Shown here in pieces: positions 6,838 through 35,101 of a stretch of 64,000 bases of DNA. The DNA is from Trochalopteron elliotii. Its lineage: Eukaryota; Chordata; Aves; Passeriformes; Leiothrichidae. A program made the position numbers and the translations under genes. Location of the stretch: positions 1,340,077 through 1,404,076 of the forward strand of contig JANPWX010000010.1 of the NCBI GenBank assembly GCA_024734555.1, given 5' to 3'. The notes under the pieces are model-generated. The model searched no databases, had not been told where the DNA came from, and was given only the letters and a program-made list of their open reading frames with translations. Each line of letters begins with the position of its first letter. Position 1 is the first letter of the stretch.

Positions 6838-18838
<12,001 letters not shown>

Positions 18839-22422: not shown

Positions 22423-25400
22423 ATGGCTCCCACCTGCCTGCTCTGCGGGGTCTGTAGCCTCCTGTGCGTCTGGTCAGTGGTGATGGGACACCCCTGCAGC
22501 CTTGACCGCCAGGTAGGGGGGCCGTGGGGGCTGCGGTGGGAGCAGCGGCTGGGGGTGGGCAGGGGGCAGAACCCGCCCCTGGTTCTGCCACCACAGCGGG
22601 GGTGCCCAGGGGGCAGCAGGGCCTGGCAGGCGGCTCCTGCTCTGCACAGCTCAAGAGAGGAGGAGCGATGAAAACCCATGGGAGCCAGCGGAGTTAATTG
22701 GGAGGTGTGCTGTGGTGGTTTGCCCATGCCCAGAGCCTGGCTGTCCTGCTCCCAGCCTTGGGCTGAATGTGTCATGTTGTCCAGCCTGTTCACCAGAGCA
22801 TTGTCTGGCAAAGCATTGTCTGATCCATTTCTGACTCTGGAGGTCTCTTGGCTGCAGGTGTAACACAGCTGCCCATAAGGGGTGCATGGCAAGCAGCCAT
22901 GAGACACATCCCTGAGGAGGTCCCAACCCCTCACTCCCTTTCCCAGTGTGTGGTGATGCAGTGACTGGAGCCAGGGTGGTGGCAAGCGTGGGGCCAGGAT
23001 CCCTGAGCACCTGGCAAGGAGCAGGAAACACAGCTAACCCACTGAGACAAGCGCTGCAGCCAGCAGCTTGGCTGCATCAGGCAGGAGCTGAGAGAATGAA
23101 GGAAAGTGGCTGTCATGGGCCACTGACCTTTCCACTGAGCTCTCAGTTATTCCACCCAAAGGTTTTCACTGTTTTCCAAAGCCTCCCTGAACCCAGCTGT
23201 GTTTGAGCTGGAAACAGGACCCCTGTGTCTTGGATCAATTATAACCCAGTCCTCAGCACCCCGGTTTAAGGGCATATCTGTTCCTCTACCAAGCAGGAAC
23301 AGCAGGGTCTGATGAGAGATTTAGGTGGACAGGAGGATGAAAGGAGAGGTGAAAGAAATGGAAAGCCCAGCTAACTGGAATGTAGCCAGACATGGAAACC
23401 CAGGACTATGGACCACAGTAAACTAAAAGCACAGCATCTCTGCTTGCAAGGTCAAACACAGCACTTAGCAGGAGCTTGTTCCTGCTCAACCAAACTTAAA
23501 TTGCTGACCTGCCTTTCTGGCAGCTTCAGTTTGGACATTTGACCCTCTCCCACTAAAAGCCCAGGCAAGAGTAACCCATGCTGGGGACTGCTCCCCAAAA
23601 CTATCTGAGCTGGGGCATCCTGTTTTACTGGTTTAAAAAAAAAAAAAAAATCCATCCATCTGGGTTGACTAATCGTTCCATTAGTCTCTGCTGGTCTTTT
23701 GGGACAGTGAATGGTCCTTGGTCTGTTCTGTTTCCTAACACCGTGTCCTAGGGTGACTATGATGCCTGTATCCCCAGTCATCTGTTCTGTATGTGCTGTG
23801 TGTTCTGTACCTTTCAGACTGGTTCTGAGAGTGAGCAGGAAAAGAAGAAGCACTCACTTTGTTTTGAAAAACAGTGTTCACTCCTCTCCATCTTCTCTTC
23901 GTCCTTAAGACTGTGTGTTCATCAAATGCACAAACAACAACCAAAATTTTTTTTCCCTTTTAGTTAATCTAGCTAGCTGAAGCAAAAAAGCTTCCTAAAC
24001 TCTTTTTTTCTTTTTTCTTAAAACGGTTTAAATCTACTCTAAACTAGAAAACCCAAAAAAGCACCAGAAGCTGCACCTGTAGCCCACTGAGCCTAGACCT
24101 CAACATTTTCCAACGCCAAAAAAACTAAAACTAATAAAAAACTAAAAAACTAAACTAACTCACAGCAAAAACTTCTCTCAATTTTGCCATCTCTTTAAAC
24201 GAACAAATAATTTTATTGTTTCATATTATTCATTCCTTATACTTGTAAGCAGCTTGTTTATTAAATAAACAGTTTTTTCCACTTTTCTCCAAAACAGTTC
24301 TTTTCCCAAACCAGCTAAAAAAACCCCAAACCATTTAAGTTTGCTCTCCAAAAAAAACCCATTCAAAGGTTTCCTCCCAAATTTGCCCTAAACCAAAACA
24401 TACTGACACAGCCAGCCAGCAGTAAGCCACAGCTACTCCCCATGTATCCTCAGGAAGGTGGGATAGGTGGAAGCATTGGTACGTTGTCCTGCACAGGCCC
24501 CAGGGAGCTGCTCCTGGCATGGGTGACTGGTACAAGTGCCTATAGCTCTGCAGCCTGGCCAGCTTCCTGCCTGCCCTTGCAACAGGCTAGGCTCAGCTGC
24601 TTCCCTCTCCAGCTGGGGGGATGCCCCTGTGTCACACAAGAGCTCCCAGGGGGCTGGAGCTGGGGATCCAGGGGAGGAAAAGGAAGGCCCTCTGCAAACT
24701 GACCCTGTATGATAACTGCCCTGTACGGAAGGACAGGGGGGTGACAACCTGTCAGTGCTTTGCACTCATCCACTTGGGTTTTTTCCCCAGCTCCTTGTCT
24801 ACTGTTTTGGTCAGCTGCTCTCAGCCCTGGGCTGTCCTGCTCATCTTTCTCCAGGTATCCAGGCACACTCCAATCTGGCAGCTCATGTGTTTTTCAAACG
24901 TGTGTGTGTCTTTGCTTTTTTTAAACTCTGCAAAGGTAATTAAGACATTTGAATCCTTGGGGAGTCCCTCTGTAGAGACACTCCCCATCATGGGTAGCCC
25001 ATTTCAGACAGAAGCTTTTTTCCCAGGGACGGGCCGACTGCAGTGGGAAGAGTCTTCAGCATGCTCCAAGTTCCCTTCCAAGAGACATCACCAGTTTGGA
25101 CCTCTCCTTCAACTCCTTGGTCATGCCCCATCACAGGACTCTCTTGAAGCATTTCCCTTCCCTGCACTCTCTTAACCTCTCCAGCAATGCCAAGCTCACG
25201 CTGAGCTCAGCAATCTTCTCCAACCTCGGGGCACTCCATCTGCTGGACCTGAGCAGCTGTGGCATCACCTACATCCCCATGGACACTTTCAAGGGCCTGG
25301 GAAACTTGCACACACTGCTTCTAAGAAACAACAGCTTGCAAGAGCTTGATGTGCCTTTCCTTTTGCCACTGAGGGCTCTTTCCCACCTGGACCTGCAGCA

Positions 25401-27115
25401 CAACGCGCTGGTCTCTGTGGGCACTTGGAGCCTGCAGCTGATGGAGACAATCCCGTGGGTCCATCTGGAAGGGAACCCCTGGGTCTGTGACTGCAGTGTG
25501 CACCCTCTGCAGCAGTGGCTGCAGCGCAGGCAAGGTGAGAGGAGGGCATGGATGGCAGGGGGTGTGTCAGACAGGTGGAACTCCAAGTGTAGGAGTCTTG
25601 CTTGAGCCATTTGCTCCGACTCCTGGGCAAGGTTTGAGATGGCTCTCTGTCCTACCCTGTTGAGGGACAGCAAACCAATAGGTGATGTGTCTGTTCCTTG
25701 CTTGCAGTTACACAGGATAACAAGGATTTCTAAGAATGTCAGCAGGATGATTTGGCCATTCTTCTGGGAAATGGGTTGCACATATACTTTGGCCTCTAAA
25801 CCCATCTTTATGTGTCTTTGTGGAGTGACCACATTTTCATTGTTGAGAGCTTGGCAGCTCCCTCTCTGGAGCCAGGTCAGGCTCCAACCATCTGAGCTCA
25901 GCTCCGAGTAAGAGCAGTGGGGTTTCTGTGGGTATCCACGAATCTGTCTGTATCCAGTTTAAAGGAGCTGCTAATCAGTCACACAGTCTGTCAGGGGATT
26001 TTCCCTTTAGTTGTTCCCTACAAAATGCTGAGGGTCAGCAAGTGAGGCAGAGCCAGGAGCACCTTGCAATGCATCCCATCACCCCAGGAGCAAGCGGGGA
26101 TCATCTTCTCTAAACAGGAGAGGGGATGGGCTCTGACCTCCATCCCACCTTATCCCATTTGTCTCCCAGCTGTGCAGGTGACCTGCATGTCGCCCCCGGG
26201 GCTGAGGGGCCAGGAGATTGCAGCTCTGGATTCTCAGGACCTGGGCTGCCAGATTAAGCAGCGGTTTGCTCGTGAGGTCAGCCCACCACAGGAGATCACA
26301 GTGACTGAGAACAACAGTAAGTTGTGCAGATTCAGAGGTGTCCATAAGGTCTAGCACCTTCCTGTCCTCTGTCATACTGGATGGGACTGCAGGTGGAGAC
26401 CCCCTGCTCTGCCCCACAGTCCCAGAGGCTGAGGCTGCTAGGCCACACTGGTGCAGTGGCTCGGTGGGAGGGTGGCCAACACCTGGAGGTGTTTGCTGGC
26501 TTTGTGACAGGAAAGTTAACAGATGCCACAAAGCCACATGGAGCACAGATTCCACAGTGATGGGCAGCAGTACCAGCCAGCTGTCAGGTAGTTTTGCTCC
26601 CAGGGTTCACACTCCCTTGGTAGCTGGGTCTTGGTGAAGAGCATCTGTATTGCTCCTAATGGAAGTGATCTAGTGCTGGCTGCACACTGCAGGCAGGCAC
26701 AGGGCTGGAGAATGGGGAGCACTGGGTGTGCCACAGGCTGACCATGTGCCTTTCCTGTCTCACAGCCACTGCACTGCCTGCCGGGAAGGGGGGAAGGAGC
26801 TGGCCATACCTGGTGGGATTCCTGGTGGCAGCAATTGCCATCTCCATCCTGATAGCCCTGGCTGCCAAGTGCAAGCTTGTCCACAAGAACTTTGCCAGCT
26901 ACCGCCACCGGCCGCTGCCCGAAATCAGCTCCATCGGAGGCGGCCCCATGGAGGACAGCAGCAACTGGGACAGGGGCTCCTGTGGGAGCCATTCCATAAC
27001 TGATGCTGCCGACCTGCAAGCTGAGGATGATGATGGCTTCATCGAGGACAACTACATCCAGCCCAGTGAGCAGCTGCCAACAAAAGAGGAGCGGGAGTTG
27101 CATCGCTCCATCTGA
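22423..27115 (+). CDS. C1orf210: TEMP/C1orf210 orthologue carrying an LRR ectodomain, four exons, 364 residues
   Basis: Exons are 22423-22512, 25027-25534, 26170-26316 and 26766-27115, all GT-AG and phase-consistent (1095 bases). Exon 1 encodes a signal peptide (about 1-22) and the first LRR N-cap cysteine. Exon 2 completes the N-cap and encodes five leucine-rich repeats (LDLSFNSL, LNLSSN, LDLSSCGI, LLLRNNSL, LDLQHNAL), then starts the C-cap (WVCDCSVHPLQQWL). Exon 3 finishes the C-cap and a stalk. Exon 4 gives an NTT glycosylation site, a membrane span (YLVGFLVAAIAISILIALAA) and a cytoplasmic tail with ASYRHRPLPE and an acidic DDDGFIEDNYIQP motif. The span and tail match human TEMP, a roughly 113-residue endosomal protein that lacks LRRs as I recall it. 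The layout matches its apparent paralogue LRRC19. A location between TIE1 and TMEM125 confirms orthology. The ligand and function are unknown; it is likely an endosomal or plasma-membrane type I receptor-like protein. Confidence 0.9.
23743..24410 (+). mobile_element. Putative solo LTR of an endogenous retrovirus in TEMP intron 1
   Basis: An AT-rich block of about 670 bases interrupts GC-rich intron sequence. It begins TGTCCTAGGG, ends near CTGACA, and contains an AATAAA signal at 24264-24269 followed by a T-rich stretch, the pattern of an LTR read on the plus strand. I found no internal viral genes and no clear target-site duplication. The ends are therefore approximate and the family assignment is open. 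Confidence 0.45.
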
Positions 27116-27548: not shown

Positions 27549-27554
27549 ATTAAA
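27549..27554 (+). terminator. TEMP polyadenylation signal (ATTAAA)
   Basis: ATTAAA lies 434 bases past the TEMP stop codon. It is followed about 30 bases later by a G/T-rich stretch (GTGGTTTGTTGGG), the normal downstream element. The 3' UTR would end near 27575. Confidence 0.65.
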
Positions 27555-32397: not shown

Positions 32398-33060
32398 TCA
32401 GATCAGGTTGGCCATGCTGGAGGTGGGAGGAAGCCGCCTGTTTCCAGCGAGGCGGCCGGAGATGGTGAAGACGCGGATCTCGCCGGTCTCCAGGCTGCGA
32501 GGAGCCGCCCGGCGGCAGGAGGTGCACAGCAGGTATAGCAGCAGGCAGAGGAGGATGGCGCTGCCGGCAGTCAGCAGGATGACCCCGCTGGTGAACATGC
32601 TGGCCAGCGGCCGTGCGGGGCTGAGCTGCATGGTGGTGGTGGAGAGGATGGTGAGCACCACCCCGCACACCAGCAGCACCAGGGCGCTCAGCAGCAGCAC
32701 CAGGCAGTCCGAGAAGCCTCCGCTCTTCAGGAGCTCGATCTGATCCCGGCTGCGGATGCAATTCATGTCCTGGATTGCAGAGCTCAGCAGCTGCTTCAGC
32801 AGCACGAGCAGGGCCAGGAGGCAGAGCGTGGTGCCCACGGCGAGCCGCCACTCTCCAGACCGGCTGCTGGTGCTGTACAGCAGGATGATGCCCCCAATCC
32901 CGCAGGCCAGGATCAGCACCACGGCCATCCCATAGCACAGGATGGCCTTTTTGGGGTCCTGGAACCACCAGAGCTCCACATGCTCTTCCAAGATATTCCT
33001 CTGGATGTGGTCTGCATCCGCAGGGGTGCGGGGGCTGCTCAGCTCTGCCAGCTCTGGCAT
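32398..33060 (-). CDS. TMEM125: Transmembrane protein TMEM125, single coding exon, 220 residues
   Basis: This is a four-span membrane protein of unknown molecular function, orthologous to human TMEM125 (219 residues). The cytoplasmic start contains [20 protein letters not shown]. Spans lie at about 39-62, 73-93, 118-139 and 155-178. The conserved block [26 protein letters not shown] follows span 1, then [11 protein letters not shown], and the C-terminus ends TSSMANLI, like the human TSSIASLI as I recall it. The frame stays open 17 codons upstream of the chosen ATG at 33060. A strong acceptor (CTCTTCACCCAG before 33069) and a good start context (ACCATGC) show that the exon begins just before this ATG, so upstream exons are non-coding. 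Its position between TEMP and CFAP57 matches human synteny. Untranslated exons and the promoter could not be placed. Confidence 0.93.
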
Positions 33061-35101
33061 GGTGAGCAGCTGGGTGAAGAGGGCACAGAGGTGGCACAGA
33101 TGAGTTTGCACTCTTACAGCAAATGGAGGGTCAATGCAGCAGCAGTGGTGAAGGCAATTGCATTTCTCCAGCAGTGATGTCTCAGTCTCATTCTTTGGAT
33201 CCTGATGGAATTTCCTTTTGCAGTGGTGCCACCTGGAGAGCTATGGTCCATGTGCTGGGGCTGAGCCCACCACCGAGGCAGGGCTGTGAAACATGATGGA
33301 GCGTTCCCAGAGCAGCACCACAGGGGAACAGCCAGGGCTGTCTCCTTCCTTTCCTTTGTCTTTCATCTGAAAAAGTCAAGAAGAGAAGATATCATTAAAC
33401 AGAGACCCTGCTCCCCTGTACCAAATAATCCTGTGCCAAACCCTGGGCCTTTTTGCTCCAGGCTGGCCTGCAGACCTTACTGTGCTTCCCTCACAGAAGC
33501 CCCGTGTGCTGGAGAACAGATCAGCTGCACGTCTTCCCGGGAGACCTCCATGTGCTGTGGGGGAACCCTGGCCTGCCCCAAGGGTGAGTCTCCTGCCTCC
33601 CCAACACTGTGTGCCCTGCTCAGAGGCTGCTGGCACATTGCTGCCCAAAGGACTCTGCCTGCAGCTGGTGCTGGCAGCAGGGCAGGGACGGAGCAGAGGC
33701 AGGTCCTTTCTGGGATAAAGCCCCATTCACAGCTCTGGCTTCACATGCTCCCTCATCAGCATCAGCCTCTTGTCACCAACTGGCTCTGCTGCCCAGAACG
33801 GGAGGTGGGGGTCAGGACCAGGGTTTAACCCTTCCACTCCAGTGCCTGGAAGAGTGAGAGCTGCCACAGTTGCATGTTCTCAGCCCTGTCCCCATTCCTG
33901 CATTGCCAGTGGTTTCCCCTCAGAAGTTACCTCCAGAAATATTGTAGCTACATCTCCAGTGATCTCAGCACATCCCTGGAAAGAGCCATTAGCTGTGGCC
34001 TGGCATCCTGAGAGTTTGTCCTCCTTGCTGCTGGTCTATGAAGCACTTTGCCACTGGAAGGGAGCAGAGGAAGGGCTGTATTGGCTCTGAAGTGCTGTGC
34101 TTAGCTGGGGTCCCCTGGGCACAGCACCTTGTCTCAGCCCACCACTCGTGATTCTCAGGCTTGTGTCCCCACTGTCCTGGCCCCTCTCAATACTTCCTTG
34201 GATACAGTTTTAGACTAAGAGTGGAAACCACTTGCGTTTCTCTCAGATAATATTCCTCCCTGGCATGTGAGTGCTCCAGCTGGTCCCACAGCACCACAGG
34301 GACCCTCTAGAGCAGCTAGTACCCAAACCATGGAGAGGTGCTGGAGAGGACAGCACAGGAGCATGTCAGGAATGACTGAGCCTAGGAGACACGGGGCTAA
34401 CCTGGAGACCCAAGAACAGCCTCTCTGCTCACCTCCTAGACAGGACAGTGCACCCTTGACCACCACGGGCACGCACATGAACTGCTCTGAGCCCTGCAGG
34501 AGCTCATGGCAGGGACAGGAACTGACTCAGGTCCCTTGTGTCAGGGCCGTGTCACTTCTCCTGCGTGGGGGACAGCCACTCTGCCTGCTAGAAATGGCTC
34601 TCAGGAGCCTATCAGCCCGTGTCAAACACTCTTTGTACCCTGCTCGGCACCGGGGCTCAGGGCTCATTACACAGACAAGGACAATTTATGACCTCCGCAC
34701 ACGGCAGCCCTGCACACACCAGAGATCTCTCCTCCCATCGCTCTCCCTGTCTCTGTTCCCCACAGACTGCATCCCCTCACGGCAATGCCTTTGCTGCCAG
34801 CAAACACCTCCAAACCCGCTGCATCGGGGCCCGGCCAACACGGGGCGGGGGGAGAGGGAGGACAATTGTGTGGGGAGTTGCCCGAACCAGACACCGCCTG
34901 ACAGTGTCAGGCCAAGCTCCTCCTGAGTCACTCCCCGGCTGTGATGGAGCATGAGGTCACTCTGGACGTGGCTCAGGGCCTGCTGCCAGCGGCACACGTG
35001 TGCAGGAAGTCTGTGAGCACGGCGGCTTGGCGGCTTGGAGCCCCCCGCCCGGGAGCCGCACGGGGCTGTTCCTGCGCCGCCGCCGCCGCTGCTGCTGGCA
35101 G

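Follow-up and report, generated by a model that had tools for sequence, protein, structure and literature searches.

The 64,000-nucleotide stretch of Trochalopteron elliotii DNA analysed here (contig JANPWX010000010.1; the window) carries an orthologue of TEMP, also called C1orf210. This bird gene probably retains the full form of its family, a type I leucine-rich repeat (LRR) receptor paralogous to LRRC19, an immune receptor of gut and kidney. Their ancestor would have had an LRR ectodomain that the short TEMPs have since lost. A first reading of the DNA alone (the sequence-only reading) had already proposed a full LRR protein in ancestral form. The observation is real and was correctly read, and it provides a sound clue to the identity of TEMP. 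Judged by titles and the beginnings of abstracts, none of the papers listed for C1orf210, 2610528J11Rik and LRRC19 describes an LRR-bearing TEMP. The long bird form is nonetheless already in the databases, under a misleading name: NCBI records call long bird proteins TEMP, and others LRRC19/LRC19, CA210 or C1orf210 homolog.

The Window Gene Encodes a Capped LRR Protein with a TEMP Tail

The gene lies on the plus strand, its four exons covering a coding span of 4,693 bases and specifying 364 codons and a stop. The three introns are all GT-AG and, from the spliced translation, of phases 0, 1 and 1; the exon coordinates of the sequence-only reading proved exact, and the introns join the exons into one open reading frame (ORF). 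Exon 1 (22423-22512) supplies the start codon, a hydrophobic, signal-like stretch over approximately residues 1-22 and the start of the N-cap (Cys25), and ends in phase 0 at the donor GTAGGG; it is kept in the full-length orthologues in the alignment. Exon 2 (25027-25534) encodes residues 31-199, with Cys35 of the N-cap, the LRRs and the first half of the C-cap (Cys184, Cys186), and has a phase 1 donor. The second half of the C-cap (Cys205, Cys226) and the stalk come from exon 3 (26170-26316), which is symmetric (147 bases, phase 1-1) and ends within the Thr codon of an N-N-T sequon. Exon 4 (26766-27115) contains the juxtamembrane part, the membrane span (26801-26872, residues 261-284), the TEMP tail and the stop. 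The two tail blocks expected in this exon were located by alignment, SYRHRPLPE at 26897-26923 (residues 293-301) and DDDGFIEDNYIQP at 27026-27064 (residues 336-348). A likely polyadenylation signal, ATTAAA, follows at 27549-27554 on the same strand.

By hydropathy, the N-terminus is hydrophobic and a single span lies between residues 259 and 288; the ectodomain comprises approximately 230 residues. Pfam matches include LRR_8 (45.9 bits, cut-off 27), LRR19-TM (PF15176; 42.1 bits, cut-off 27) and LRRCT, while a TIR domain was not among the families listed at E<=1 and an NCBIfam scan gave only matches far under the cut-offs. The signal peptide was judged by hydropathy and the N-cap, which has no Pfam LRRNT match, by its cysteines and by an AlphaFold2 model. 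The model was made for the orthologue P0001, 93% identical to the window protein. It predicts LRR strands at residues 53-55, 78-80, 102-104, 126-128, 150-152 and 174-176, a C-cap helix at 186-197 and a helix through the span at 261-292, followed by a low-confidence tail. The five LRRs originally claimed are thus seen as strands in the model, and the count becomes six if the strand leading into the C-cap is included. Together, hydropathy, the Pfam matches and the model place a signal-like start, both caps, the span and the tail in one protein, as had been proposed. The type III topology, with no signal peptide and a short lumenal N-terminus, is not found here; the name TEMP fits the window protein through descent and not through the topology it describes.

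The Long Form Occurs in Other Birds and in Alligator

A search with the window protein returned 334 proteins at E<=1e-3, of which the best 120 are listed; 119 of those listed carry bird names. The closest (P0001) matches over its full length and likewise has 364 residues, and most of the complete bird orthologues listed have 357-390. One relative, P0002, has an unbroken 364-residue ORF, identical to the window protein at 325 of 364 positions, with a longest contig of 1,692 bases. Since this ORF sits on 1,692 bases and the coding span in the window is nearly three times as long, P0002 would be a spliced transcript that joins the LRR exons to the TEMP exon, and the claim that these exons are read as one ORF is borne out in a relative. 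The Alligator protein P0272 (392 residues) matches in the signal region, LRRs, caps, stalk, span and tail, with 117 of 218 residues identical in positions 31-248 and 93 of 169 in exon 2, so the fusion is not absent from all other sauropsids. A scan of viral contigs with the Alligator protein yielded no confirmed match.

For conservation we used a full-length set of 33 sequences: the window protein, 31 of the listed matches of 350-400 residues, and Alligator. All eight cysteines tested are conserved in 33/33. Among the 31, median identity is 0.79 for exon 2 and 0.80 for the tail, so the ectodomain is conserved about as well as the tail. In a simulation of neutral drift the frame of exon 2 was still open in 165/5000 runs at 0.3 substitutions per site, a result not used as proof. 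A chance ORF or a false splice is ruled out by the orthologues and by P0002.

Shortened isoforms are also on record. The chicken isoform X3 (P0279, 255 residues) lacks residues 31-167, which takes away the LRR strands as far as 150-152. Splicing to an in-frame AG could account for this; such an AG lies inside exon 2 in the window (25436-25437, plus strand), and its use as acceptor would remove the same residues. The alignment sets this gap at 30-166, Gln30 and Gln167 being alike. Records from Acridotheres and Pithys (P0031, P0038) lack residues 201-249, so that half of the C-cap and the stalk are gone in frame, as the symmetric exon 3 permits.

The Gene Is TEMP by Tail and by Locus

Over its last 110 residues the window protein shares 43-45% identity with two placental TEMPs (68-74 bits), 47-55% with three amphibian TEMPs and 49% with one fish TEMP, and the tail alignment has 21 invariant columns over 30 sequences. 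Against a provisional human LRRC19 sequence, one not taken from a database, the same residues give 34% and 36 bits. A maximum-likelihood tree was built from 43 tail sequences, with the Alligator sequence beginning 11 residues too early. The window protein groups with the other long bird sequences (97/94), among sauropsid TEMPs, and Alligator falls beside Crocodylus (85/48). Placentals lie on one side of a branch (100/100); the frogs group with them, perhaps as a long-branch effect.

The locus agrees with the tail. Downstream and tail to tail with the gene, an ORF at 32401-33240 on the minus strand holds TMEM125 (PF15109, 169.8 bits). Upstream, at 8224-8376 on the minus strand, lies an exon of a TIE-family kinase with a PDB match to Tie2/TEK; we tentatively take it to be TIE1 rather than TEK, from some of its residues and from the link to TMEM125. 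The gene thus sits between TMEM125 and a kinase that is presumably TIE1, and tail, tree and flanks together uphold its assignment as the TEMP/C1orf210 orthologue.

Many bird records are labelled LRRC19 or LRC19, as would suit a gene that is LRRC19 itself; a related suggestion is that the gene is a chimera, by read-through or misassembly, of a separate LRR gene and TEMP. We regard either as very improbable. The tail is closer to placental TEMPs than to the provisional LRRC19 sequence by the scores above, and the adjoining gene is TMEM125, with the kinase read as TIE1 on the other side, where LRRC19 lies next to TEK and IFT74. Chicken LRRC19 is listed with PLAA and CAAP1 (PMC11816201) and chicken C1orf210 appears as well (PMC10959104), in lists that name genes and do not map them. 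A chimera is at odds with the single ORF on one short contig in P0002 and with a layout that recurs across many bird assemblies and in that of Alligator; the same two observations rule out a separate LRR gene fused by assembly. Both versions are therefore largely refuted.

A Pfam scan of five neighbouring ORFs left two without a family. Beyond the TIE kinase, at 524-1514 on the minus strand, there is a cytokine-receptor-like sequence with a WGPWS motif; the Pfam scan of one of the two ORFs there gave only sub-threshold matches, fn3 among them. We take the sequence to resemble MPL.

TEMP and LRRC19 Are Paralogues

LRRC19 is represented in our comparisons by this one provisional human sequence, with the letters of its ectodomain unverified. 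Residues 26-350 of the window protein align with it in a single alignment (99/356 identical, 95 bits), with no difference in the order of parts between the N-cap and the tail. Identity is 62/212 in the ectodomain and 32/85 in the tail. The ratio of -ln identity, ectodomain over tail, is 1.38 between bird and Alligator and 1.26 between bird and provisional LRRC19, and with ratios so similar the ectodomain seems no younger than the tail. The provisional LRRC19 sequence scores 234 bits against LRR19-TM, and the same family is above its cut-off in 7/7 database TEMPs scanned (tamarin, Alligator, ostrich, fish, newt, caecilian and frog).

For the mouse protein we rely on a study that we take to be that of Dolan et al. 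2007. Mouse Lrrc19 is there a protein of 364 residues with a signal sequence, LRRNT, 6 LRRs, LRRCT and a transmembrane segment (PMC2235866). The window protein has this family layout of signal peptide, N-cap, LRRs, C-cap and one span, the signal peptide by hydropathy.

TIE1 and TEK go back, as paralogues, to the genome duplications of vertebrates; that TEMP adjoins a TIE kinase and LRRC19 adjoins TEK is the pattern expected of a duplicated block. In sheep, a gene table places LRRC19 inside IFT74 with TEK as the next gene (PMC9448734), and human and pig gene lists agree on this neighbourhood (PMC6764480, PMC8227816). By sequence and position, TEMP is a paralogue of LRRC19. Because of this paralogy the long LRR form is most likely the ancestral one, as the sequence-only reading had supposed.

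Short TEMPs Are Listed in Placentals, Amphibians and Teleosts

Mouse TEMP has 111 residues, no signal peptide and a type III topology, and is found at the surface and on early/recycling endosomes, with expression in stomach, kidney and intestine (PMC3901140). The human protein described in the sequence-only reading (about 113 residues, no LRR, no signal peptide, type III) agrees with this description. Aturaliya et al. 2012, who named TEMP, found that it was not significantly related to any other domain or family, identified orthologues solely in mammals, and noted one motif common to mouse TEMP and Lrrc19 (PMC3901140).

A search limited to short proteins gave 178 matches; among the best 120 listed, short sequences include 34 placental, 15 teleost, 7 amphibian, 12 bird and 8 other sauropsid, the mammalian ones mostly of about 111-119 residues. 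The proposal that mammals were the lineage that lost the ectodomain does not hold as worded, with the teleost and amphibian sequences listed here short too. A third search, with a profile of diverse tails and a length window that admitted at least 107-392 residues, gave 1018 matches. Among the 120 listed, 24 have >=250 residues (23 birds and Alligator), the other 96 have <=192, and no long form bears a non-sauropsid name. Ectodomain loss was thus probably repeated, unless long forms stand among the unlisted matches. In none of the three sets of 120 listed matches is a sequence named as squamate, monotreme, marsupial, shark/cartilaginous fish or coelacanth.

Several short sauropsid C1orf210 records in UniRef (P0142, P0143, P0146, P0148, P0153, P0158 and similar entries), all lacking the LRR exons, appear to be fragments or intron read-through; P0142 starts with sequence resembling intron 3 of the window. 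At least some short bird and reptile entries, being read-through or partial models, lend no support to a short form in these animals.

An ancient internal promoter could also account for the short type III form, with a long form that in some amphibians or fishes is confined to certain tissues or missing from the annotation, and with the upstream exons dropped later by individual lineages. In placentals, amphibians and teleosts alike, short forms do begin about equally far ahead of the span, and some listed short records are termed isoform X2, e.g., P0166 of Ambystoma. The profile search speaks against it, all its listed long forms being sauropsid, and we consider a two-promoter gene unlikely.

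An Apparently Shared Intron and the Order of Events

Read-through proteins from placentals bear on where the short forms begin. Sigmodon P0180 continues NQ-S-E-W and Rhynchocyon P0237 NQ-S-K-R, and the window reads NN-S-K-L past its donor. At the other end, P0244 and its spliced counterpart P0241 are identical from IVGPSEL on and diverge exactly at A/T. With the first pair fitting the donor end and the second the acceptor end, placentals apparently have a phase 1 intron in the Thr codon of an N-x-T sequon, as in intron 3 of the window, a position derived from proteins and not from mammalian DNA. On this reading, translation in placentals would start within a remnant of exon 3.

The short forms could, alternatively, reflect an early loss of the ectodomain after the split from LRRC19, with sauropsids later acquiring a new one, through exon shuffling or gene conversion, either from LRRC19 or from a different LRR gene. 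With the listed teleost, amphibian and placental TEMPs all short, this takes two events as against three or more losses. It conflicts with the divergence from provisional LRRC19, which relative to rates is as great in the ectodomain as in the tail, with the shared order of parts in that outgroup and with the intron apparently common to placentals at the same codon and phase. We therefore think recapture improbable.

Several observations nevertheless weigh against an ancestral long form related to LRRC19. In the tail tree the long form falls within the short ones, and without LRRC19 as outgroup a single gain in sauropsids would be simpler; together with this nesting, the event counts slightly favour loss and regain. 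The one provisional human sequence is a thin base for LRRC19, and LRR similarity is not specific to it, as LRRC15 in the PDB scores 116 bits (phmmer). The LRRCT match of the window protein, at 20.1 bits, barely exceeds its cut-off of 20. For the bird form we found no data on ligands, signalling or expression. Finally, a profile of bird exon 3, run against 29 short-form leaders with 50 shuffles each, detected no convincing relic of the LRRCT or stalk, the best real score being 2.4 bits and shuffles reaching 5.5. P0210 beats all 50 of its own shuffles at 2.4 bits, whereas P0260 and P0160 are reached by 1/50 and P0165 by 2/50; five of the six fish leaders (P0168, P0181, P0195, P0218, P0253) hold nearly the whole protein. 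A mammalian start near the span, as the sequence-only reading had it, fits the shared intron deduced from proteins, but the leaders show no detectable exon 3 relic.

Discussion

We propose that the genome duplications early in vertebrate history gave rise to TEMP and LRRC19 along with TIE1 and TEK; the ancestor of TEMP and LRRC19 would have carried the LRR ectodomain. Short TEMPs would have dropped it, translation beginning in the remnant of exon 3 and the topology staying unchanged; the span and its basic flank remain, and for this reason the N-terminus would still be lumenal. In the bird form the LRR ectodomain is expected outside the cell or in the endosome lumen, with the short conserved tail in the cytosol. 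By analogy, the protein may bind a microbial or tissue ligand through its LRR solenoid on epithelium of the gut or kidney type, cycle, like mouse TEMP, between the surface and early/recycling endosomes, and signal or sort through the SYRHRPLPE and DDDGFIEDNYIQP blocks. We infer, from the likeness to its paralogue, an LRRC19-like epithelial receptor.

LRRC19 is reported to act in gut epithelium through TRAF2/6 and NF-kB (PMC4742566); TRAF2/TRAF6-linked NF-kB activation (PMC4742566, PMC10763354) and flagellin binding (PMC10763354) have been reported. In HEK293T cells, LRRC19 without its extracellular region gave no NF-kB response to lactobacilli (PMC4742566). Because mammalian TEMP resembles this construct, a role as competitor or in trafficking deserves a test. 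A bolder and more doubtful idea, though a tenable one, is that vertebrates beheaded TEMP repeatedly, at least in the teleost, amphibian and mammalian lines, turning a type I receptor into a signal-less type III stub, translated from a start just ahead of the span, that keeps only a trafficking/adaptor tail. In gut and kidney cells that also have its paralogue LRRC19, the stub, blind to ligand, might act as competitor of that receptor or as its partner in trafficking, and birds and crocodilians would keep two full receptors.

In mammals TEMP is an orphan, and LRRC19 as its likely duplication partner gives it a family and a likely ancestral job. The data suggest that in mammals, amphibians and fish the short TEMP derives from a receptor by loss of the outer part. 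The receptor head kept in birds and Alligator raises a testable question, whether the stub modulates LRRC19, and the loss would be a clean case in which removal of an ectodomain took the signal peptide with it yet preserved membrane topology.

Capped extracellular LRRs are also found in Toll-like receptors, Slit2, the Nogo receptor, LRRC26 and VLRs; the bird TEMP tail has no Pfam TIR match, and the fold match to such proteins is uninformative on ligand. Placental TEMP (2610528J11Rik) shares with the bird protein the span, the SYRHRPLPE-type and DDDGFIEDNYIQP blocks, the N-x-T sequon apparently cut by a phase 1 intron, and a lumenal N-terminus with cytosolic C-terminus, but at about 111-119 residues it has neither signal peptide nor LRR, in contrast to the 364 residues, signal-like start and LRR ectodomain of the bird form. 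LRRC19, the one of the two for which signalling is known, differs in lying beside TEK rather than the TMEM125-linked TIE kinase and in reading DKYID in the tail block where bird TEMP has DNYIQP. In other respects the two are alike, with a signal peptide, LRRNT, about 6 LRRs, LRRCT, a single span and an LRR19-TM tail with the DDDGFIED-YI block, near-equal lengths, and genes that each adjoin a TIE/TEK kinase gene.

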